A DNA stretch of 64,000 bases from Paraburkholderia fungorum (lineage in GTDB: Bacteria; Pseudomonadota; Gammaproteobacteria; Burkholderiales; Burkholderiaceae), in assembly GCF_900099835.1 (NCBI RefSeq), contig NZ_FNKP01000002.1, positions 1,178,001-1,242,000 on the forward strand, read 5' to 3'. Shown here piece by piece: positions 330-13,353 of this stretch (its first letter is position 1; each line of letters opens with the position of its first letter). Below the pieces are notes generated by a model. It was given only the letters and a program-made list of their open reading frames with translations, did no database searches and was not told where the DNA came from. A program made the translations under genes and the position numbers.

Positions 330-440
330 GACAGCTTTGCATGGGATCAGAGTAAGCGCTAAAGCGCTAACTCTGGTCGACAGCTTTGCATGGGGTCCTA
401 GTAAGCGCCAAAGCGCTAACTAGGACCGACAAAGGAGACG
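330..440 (+). repeat. Tandem-hairpin leader element, copy A (two hairpins plus SD)
   Basis: Two near-identical units stand head to tail. Each begins GACAGCTTTGCATGG and is followed by a hairpin. Hairpin 1 (345-378) has outer arms GATCAGAGT / ACTCTGGTC, an A.A mismatch, an inner stem AGCGC/GCGCT and the loop TAAA. Hairpin 2 (394-427) has outer arms GGTCCTAGT / ACTAGGACC, the same mismatch and inner stem, and the loop CAAA. Right after hairpin 2 comes CCGACAAAGGAGA, which is the Shine-Dalgarno of the gene starting at 449. Copy B at 13246-13353 has the same architecture. The outer arms differ between hairpins yet stay paired, with one G.T wobble, which points to selection on RNA structure. Function is unknown. 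Confidence 0.8.
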
Positions 441-13170: not shown

Positions 13171-13245
13171 CAAATAGTCGGCAACGCGTACTTTTTTCTG
13201 GCAACTATGTATGCACAGCGCGGACACACGTCTGCGAAGCCGGTA

Positions 13246-13353
13246 ATGGCTTTGCGTTGGGCTGGAGTAGGCGCTGAAGCGCTAACTCTGGTCGACAGCT
13301 TTGCATGGGGCGGGAGTAAGCGCTAAAGCGCTAACTCCCGCCGACAAAGGAGA
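13246..13353 (+). repeat. Tandem-hairpin leader element, copy B (two hairpins plus SD)
   Basis: The architecture matches the copy at 330-440. Hairpin 1 (13260-13293) pairs GGCTGGAGT with ACTCTGGTC, including several G.T wobbles, with inner stem GGCGC/GCGCT and loop TGAA; its left flank is somewhat decayed. Hairpin 2 (13309-13342) has perfect outer arms GGCGGGAGT / ACTCCCGCC, an A.A mismatch, inner stem AGCGC/GCGCT and loop TAAA. The spacer between them is CGACAGCTTTGCATGG, as in copy A. CCGACAAAGGAGA follows and supplies the SD for proV at 13361. The outer arms of hairpin 2 differ at many positions from copy A but remain fully paired. Confidence 0.8.

Follow-up and report, generated by a model that had tools for sequence, protein, structure and literature searches.

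The 64,000-nucleotide (nt) stretch of the Paraburkholderia fungorum genome analysed here (contig NZ_FNKP01000002.1, positions 1,178,001 to 1,242,000; hereafter the window) carries two pairs of tandem hairpins, array A in front of a gene for an acyl-CoA synthetase type enzyme and array B in front of a gene for an ABC transporter ATPase. These hairpins look like members of a family of short palindromic repeats, often arranged in tandem, and not like a switch dedicated to a single gene. The repeats are mostly placed at Shine-Dalgarno (SD) sites, grow in tandem, nest within one another, are gained and lost between relatives and accompany diverse host genes, and in multi-unit arrays the unit proximal to the SD site is the best paired. 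From the sequences we tentatively favour a reading in which the family is anchored at SD sites and the last hairpin of an array perhaps provides an insulating or stabilising mRNA stem.

Features of the window:
330-378, + strand: unit 1 of array A, spacer GACAGCTTTGCATGG plus hairpin 345-378
345-378, + strand: hairpin 1 of array A, outer arms GATCAGAGT/ACTCTGGTC with one U.G, A.A mismatch, inner stem AGCGC/GCGCT, loop TAAA, -21.0 kcal/mol
379-427, + strand: unit 2 of array A, spacer plus hairpin 394-427
394-427, + strand: hairpin 2 of array A, adjoining the SD site, arms GGTCCTAGT/ACTAGGACC, loop CAAA, -23.7 kcal/mol
428-438, + strand: junction after array A, GACAAAGGAGA, the unit-ending GAC followed by the SD sequence, like junctions in other arrays
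13245-13293, + strand: unit 1 of array B, diverged spacer, hairpin 13260-13293, -19.4 kcal/mol
13294-13342, + strand: unit 2 of array B, hairpin 13309-13342, -27.2 kcal/mol
13343-13353, + strand: junction after array B, GACAAAGGAGA, with the SD sequence of the ABC ATPase gene
2-307, + strand: gene before array A, end of the gene with an acyl-CoA dehydrogenase C-terminal domain, stop codon 305-307
449-2158, + strand: gene after array A, AMP-binding (acyl-CoA synthetase type) enzyme of 569 amino acids, Pfam PF00501 and PF13193
13361-14539, + strand: gene after array B, ABC transporter ATPase, Pfam PF00005, perhaps of the glycine-betaine/proline type; a C-terminal CBS match is weak and falls below the Pfam cut-off

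Anatomy, covariation and distribution of the repeat

Both arrays consist of two 49-nt units, and the last hairpin of each runs directly into the SD-containing junction GACAAAGGAGA. A unit comprises GAC, a variable spacer, GCATGG and a 34-nt hairpin, in which 9-nt arms that are free in sequence but complementary enclose the near-constant core GTAAGCGCTRAAGCGCYAAC. The units at 330-378 and 379-427 are direct repeats with 84% identity to each other. Folding gives one architecture for all four hairpins of the window (9-bp outer arm, A.A mismatch, 5-bp inner stem and 4-nt loop), and both arrays fold below their dinucleotide shuffles, with z-scores of -7.46 for 330-427 and -6.05 for 13245-13342 and none of 200 shuffles equal in either case. 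The hairpins at 345-378 and 394-427, which had been predicted from the sequence alone, are thus confirmed, and other details of that original prediction need adjusting. The arms were said to differ at most positions, but by eye only three of nine positions differ in the 5′ arm and four of nine in the 3′ arm, with pairing preserved in both hairpins. The two loci do have two units each, and the spacer GACAGCTTTGCATGG recurs in three of the four, but that of the unit at 13245 has diverged. Similarly, the A.A mismatch and the four-base loop are common to all four hairpins, but the supposedly shared inner stem AGCGC/GCGCT is not, since hairpin 13260-13293 has GGCGC in its inner 5′ stem, together with several G.U pairs. 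Covariance models of Rfam 15 gave no match at the gathering threshold in the 64-kb window.

The further proposal that the hairpins represent a repeat family with covarying arms is borne out beyond the window. Among 118 distinct units chosen on the core alone and not on pairing, 103 form at least six of seven outer pairs (G.U counted), whereas arms combined across units reach that number in 32% of trials. In an alignment of 43 units (A2), 95.5% of cells pair as against 84.8% in shuffles, and 67 cells have changed on both sides as against 18.2; this result leans towards pairing, because the seeds of A2 and of the covariance model R1 were units with at least seven of nine outer pairs (43 of 61 such units were used). 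The central arm positions use all four Watson-Crick types.

Within the 8.58-Mb P. fungorum genome, a loose core pattern gives 27 matches, some of them outside the family, compared with eight for a reversed control, and R1 gives 57 matches at E ≤ 0.01, some being opposite-strand echoes. Of the 39 genomes available for the genus, this one counted, 32 contain the exact 18-nt core. At E ≤ 1e-7, R1 matches 54 of 150 sampled genomes of the bacterial family, in 8 of 25 genera; because the scan scored the best 43 candidates per genome, the copy numbers it gives are minimum values. In a sample across the class, two of 114 genomes match at E ≤ 1e-3, one being the P. fungorum genome itself and the other a weak match. 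Named carriers among 80 listed of at least 120 matching stretches include Burkholderia, Paraburkholderia, Caballeronia and Trinickia, and 18 records of a plasmid collection contain the core, replicons of Burkholderia, Paraburkholderia and Caballeronia among them. The core was also seen in two stretches of viral contigs. Occurrences in Thiobacillus, Hydrogenophilales, Selenomonas, Lacticaseibacillus and one unplaced metagenome-assembled genome of Pseudomonadota (L065, L079, L098, L115, L120) failed a filter for the CATGG and GAC flanks and were collectively treated as chance.

The genes that follow the repeats are of many kinds. Besides the two in the window, 13 hosts in the P. fungorum genome were examined by Pfam: a thiolase, a LysR regulator, an AMP-binding enzyme, an MR/MLE-type enzyme, a xylose-isomerase-like protein, a thiamine pyrophosphate (TPP) enzyme, an amidohydrolase, a siderophore-interacting protein, an ABC permease, a flagellar rod protein (presumably FlgG, judging by its sequence), the gamma and epsilon subunits of ATP synthase, and a solute-binding protein. 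These 13 and the two in the window show no shared gene theme and point to no common ligand, and because the hosts are unrelated, a riboswitch for acyl-CoA synthetase is unlikely.

Tandem growth, gain and loss

In arrays from named genomes, neighbouring units follow at intervals of 45-55 nt in 79 of 93 cases; a single unit was recognised in 73 of 122 arrays, and an array holds up to eight. Spacers in the arrays read are similar inside an array and different between loci, and they mostly start near GAC and end near GCATGG. At five loci (L027, L030, L033, L048, L125) a whole unit lies inside the loop of another, the outer arms of which still pair (by eye), while the array at L101 grew by dimers and that at L309 holds chimeric units with non-matching arms of two types. 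Nesting, dimeric growth and chimeric units are signs of tandem recombination. Across 243 units, loop position 2 is only A or G, though in each array part of the core of one unit was prescribed by the search.

Turnover between relatives is seen in the gap between atpD and atpC, where the number of units in related species ranges from none to three and scars also occur; some species have the run CTCAACCAGGAG empty, and others retain a half-unit or just CGAC or GCATGG (all by eye). A readable site was obtained at 82 of 95 atpC loci, the remaining 13 giving none, and an SD-proximal family hairpin passes the filter at 36 of the 82, two of these (L349, L351) being apparent false positives. In genus g125 (L363-L376), 11 of 14 sites pass the same filter despite changed inner stems and loops.

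Several other arrangements were noticed in the atpC leaders. Three genomes of genus g123 (L349, L351, L382) have another hairpin right before the SD sequence; in L349 and L351 it lies in the final ~45 nt of the leader and is CCTCTGCGAGCGCGGAGATAGACCCC, which resembles the cas-associated CRISPR repeat GGGTCTATCTCCGCGCACGCGGAGGAACC given for P. grimmiae in PMC5968390. In L347, L348 and L338, a deletion within the unit leaves GACCGGAG just before the start codon, and a former hairpin arm seems to be used as the SD sequence. Finally, L370, L371 and L374 have an apparent extra stem flanking the middle hairpin, and its two sides differ jointly in two genomes (GCCGCG/CGCGGC vs GCCGTGG/CCACGGC); both observations are by eye only.

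The synthetase gene itself shows similar instability. Reading by eye the 170 nt in front of 18 orthologs of at least 78% identity, we found intact units in two (G000, G032), remnants in three (G038, G007, G004) and none in 13; R1 agrees for G000, G032 and G038. Together with the unrelated hosts, the 13 orthologs that lack an array directly in front speak against the link with acyl-CoA synthetase that the original prediction drew. Three of these 13 (L401, L403, L406) have an array at the SD site of the preceding acyl-CoA dehydrogenase gene instead, with the same junction GACAGGAGAC in L403 and L406, and in L401 after a further half-unit. Different species therefore use different SD slots within one operon; the flanks covered 1.5 kb, and arrays one gene upstream may be missed in other orthologs.

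Placement at Shine-Dalgarno sites and pairing of the last hairpin

Counts of pairing, placement, SD distance and mismatches are based on 219 distinct arrays, 107 and 112 from two genome sets. In 155 of 213 arrays the last hairpin has GGAG or AGGA behind it at no more than 24 nt (six were dropped for too short a flank), compared with 9 of 213 for an SD core at the other end on the opposite strand and a random-position background of 8.7%. An NTG triplet follows shortly after the SD core in 143 of the 155, and the predicted placement before start codons is thereby supported for most arrays. Among 160 arrays, the stem is separated from GGAG by 4 nt in 47 and by 6 nt in 84, and 75 of 117 arrays pass a stricter test for an SD sequence, a start codon and an open reading frame within 60 nt (5 of 122 arrays, lying at stretch ends, were excluded). 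Array A is intercistronic, as the upstream gene on the same strand has its stop codon at 305-307. In most arrays the last hairpin is followed by GACA..GGAG and not by a T run, which makes a terminator unlikely in those arrays.

Arrays without a close SD core fall into several kinds: several continue through a half-unit first, a few adjoin ribosomal RNA (rRNA) or transfer RNA (tRNA) genes, and some lie elsewhere, especially in Trinickia. There, L080, L083, L102, L121 and L134 have family hairpins away from SD sites, some of them followed by an A run and another hairpin. At L111, L112, L122, L152 and L160 the core lies next to what is, judging by its sequence, apparently the 3′ end of 23S rRNA, on the other strand, and at L122 the outer arms pair by eye.

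Pairing in multi-unit arrays depends on position. The fraction with at least six of seven outer Watson-Crick pairs falls from 0.89 in last units (n=111) through 0.64 in middle units (n=110) to 0.56 in first units (n=111). The polarity persists among units with identical cores (0.92 of 62 last units against 0.73 of 63), and within 109 multi-unit arrays the last unit is better paired in 70 and worse in 11.

According to the reading that we tentatively favour, the repeat would spread and expand as a repetitive element that is tolerated or favoured just before SD sites. Its units occupy leaders and intercistronic gaps in the orientation of the gene, mostly 4 or 6 nt before the SD core; the last hairpin would work as a local stem-loop of the mRNA, shielding the leader of the cistron that follows, and upstream copies would decay. 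Such shielding might consist in insulation of initiation, in protection from nucleases, or in the blocking of upstream structure or ribosomes.

A number of results weigh against this proposal. An SD core within 24 nt is absent from 59 of the 219 arrays, and in the closest synthetase ortholog, that of G038 (97% protein identity), the SD-proximal hairpin is gone. Single SD-adjacent units are well paired in a fraction of 0.82 (n=49), no better than SD-less arrays at 0.83 (n=59), and part of the polarity may therefore reflect age or direction of growth. Folding of the first 110 eligible arrays gave better SD access for the native sequence than for the array-deleted one in 58 cases (p 0.21), than with natural upstream sequence in 59 (p 0.011) and than for shuffled arrays in 62 (p 0.076). 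The hairpins thus appear, in this model, to have little effect on SD access, leaving nuclease protection or the blocking of upstream structure or ribosomes as candidate roles.

The mismatches within the stems point the same way. Pairing in RNA predicts an excess of G.U, with A.C not tolerated, and near-equal numbers therefore speak against simple selection on an RNA stem. Among units with at least five of seven outer Watson-Crick pairs, the outer stems contain 50 G.U and 51 A.C mismatches and the inner stems 19 G.U and 38 A.C (p 0.016), with 12 and 25, respectively, in last units alone. In a control of just 13 tRNAs at the same loci, the counts were 8 G.U and 1 A.C. At atpC, an initial count of 19 G.U and 8 A.C (18 hairpins, p 0.052) became 33 and 27 in a wider count (34 hairpins, p 0.52), and another count, with hairpins outside the family included, gave 36 and 41. 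The selection for RNA structure claimed in the original prediction is consequently supported in part, by the covarying arms, and questioned by stems that mismatch as A.C as often as G.U, unlike the small tRNA control. The even numbers weaken rather than refute selection at the RNA level, as most mismatches may be recent. Antisense RNA was also considered: an excess of A.C in the inner stems would fit the other strand, but the outer stems are even, and the idea is not supported.

Competing explanations and related elements

It is a real possibility that the family is a neutral palindrome of the REP or minisatellite kind with no host function, the arms of which are made or mended by strand-switching and then decay neutrally. 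The balance of 50 G.U to 51 A.C is consistent with this, as are gain, loss and scars among relatives, the uniform spacers specific to each locus, dimeric expansion and chimeric units, and the equal pairing of SD-less arrays and single SD-adjacent units. Placement would then have to arise from insertion aimed at SD sites or from the loss of insertions elsewhere. Three observations fit neutrality less well: the superior pairing of the SD-proximal unit in multi-unit arrays, which holds for identical cores too; the near-fixed gap of 4 or 6 nt to the SD core; and the 11 of 14 atpC sites in g125 that pass the hairpin filter although inner stems and loops have changed.

A more far-reaching proposal, which we consider unlikely, is that of a self-spreading RNA module that supplies ready-made hairpins for ribosome-binding sites, across Burkholderia sensu lato, its repeat number or state tuning how at least a dozen unrelated cistrons in each genome are translated or how their mRNA decays, possibly through a common binding factor. 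A group-wide regulon, in which translation of many genes is controlled by a protein or small RNA that has the constant core or the spacer as its binding site, strikes us as improbable. Such binding would explain why core and flanks are constant while the arms vary (including the A or G at loop position 2, a count biased by the search), why leaders can hold several copies, and why these lie close to the SD sequence. On the other hand, the hosts have no common theme, arrays are not kept at orthologous genes, and the loop is not constant at atpC in some species.

The original prediction had suggested that the two hairpins might pair with each other as a riboswitch or attenuator, which their near-identical inner stems would allow. 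We now regard this as very improbable: forced pairing between hairpins reaches -31.8 kcal/mol, some 20 kcal/mol worse than the -52.0 kcal/mol of the separate hairpins, unit number ranges from one to eight, and the hosts are unrelated. Two coding interpretations of the unit were considered as well. A three-frame stop was rejected, as the TAA triplets of the core at offsets 1, 8 and 16 cover two frames only (by eye), and the third triplet is CAA in 68 of 243 units. Neither is a mini-ORF (short open reading frame) from CATGG to the first TAA supported: the triplet is ATG in 204 of 243 units and GTG in 16, ATA and others also occurring, and no SD-like sequence was seen in the common spacer.

REP, BIME and REPIN elements are likewise short palindromes that are clustered, present in many copies per genome and gained or lost among relatives. 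They are extragenic, without a fixed place relative to start sites, unlike the present family, which is mostly fixed in orientation and position before SD sites and unconstrained in arm sequence. REP and REPIN palindromes are associated with RAYT transposases. A RAYT-like match (PF01797) was found in all 29 genomes searched, copy-rich and copy-poor alike (28 over the cut-off, most of them weak), and mobilisation by RAYT found no support, as no correlation of match and copy number was seen in these 29 genomes. The RAYT-like gene of P. fungorum lies at C1:3591445, and the nearest repeat match listed is a weak one about 119 kb away. The 5′ stem-loop that stabilises E. coli ompA mRNA is similar in being a stable leader hairpin upstream of the SD sequence; the present units differ in being also intercistronic, often tandem and repetitive, and stabilisation is here a candidate role only.

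The nearest parallel found in placement and host diversity is with the TAACTGA heptamer repeats of Beggiatoaceae, for which a role in translational regulation has been suggested (PMC4679880); these occur in other taxa, with 7-nt units in place of a compensated 34-nt hairpin. The same core also appears in Table 4 of PMC5968390, where GCGTAAGCGCTAAAGCGCTAACGCC is given as a CRISPR repeat of P. terrae with cas genes entered as 'NI'. That the arrays are Cas-less CRISPR-like loci is scarcely credible: in the arrays read, spacers within an array are alike and homologous, the palindromic units have arms that vary between copies, and most arrays stand directly before an SD core. Apart from this table entry, no earlier description of the repeat was found in the open-licence literature, covered mostly at abstract level. 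The family fits poorly with REP or REPIN elements, given its placement and no RAYT link seen, with CRISPR and with riboswitches, and looks like a set of repeated leader elements for which no description seems to exist.

A functional last hairpin would mean that a repeat has been co-opted as a portable component of leaders in a group of bacteria that is widely studied, and strains could then differ in expression simply through the number of their repeats. Should the hairpin be without function, the family would still be an unusual repeat, lying mostly a few bases from ribosome-binding sites and entered as a repeat in a CRISPR survey. Either way, it can mislead annotation and RNA target prediction in these genomes.
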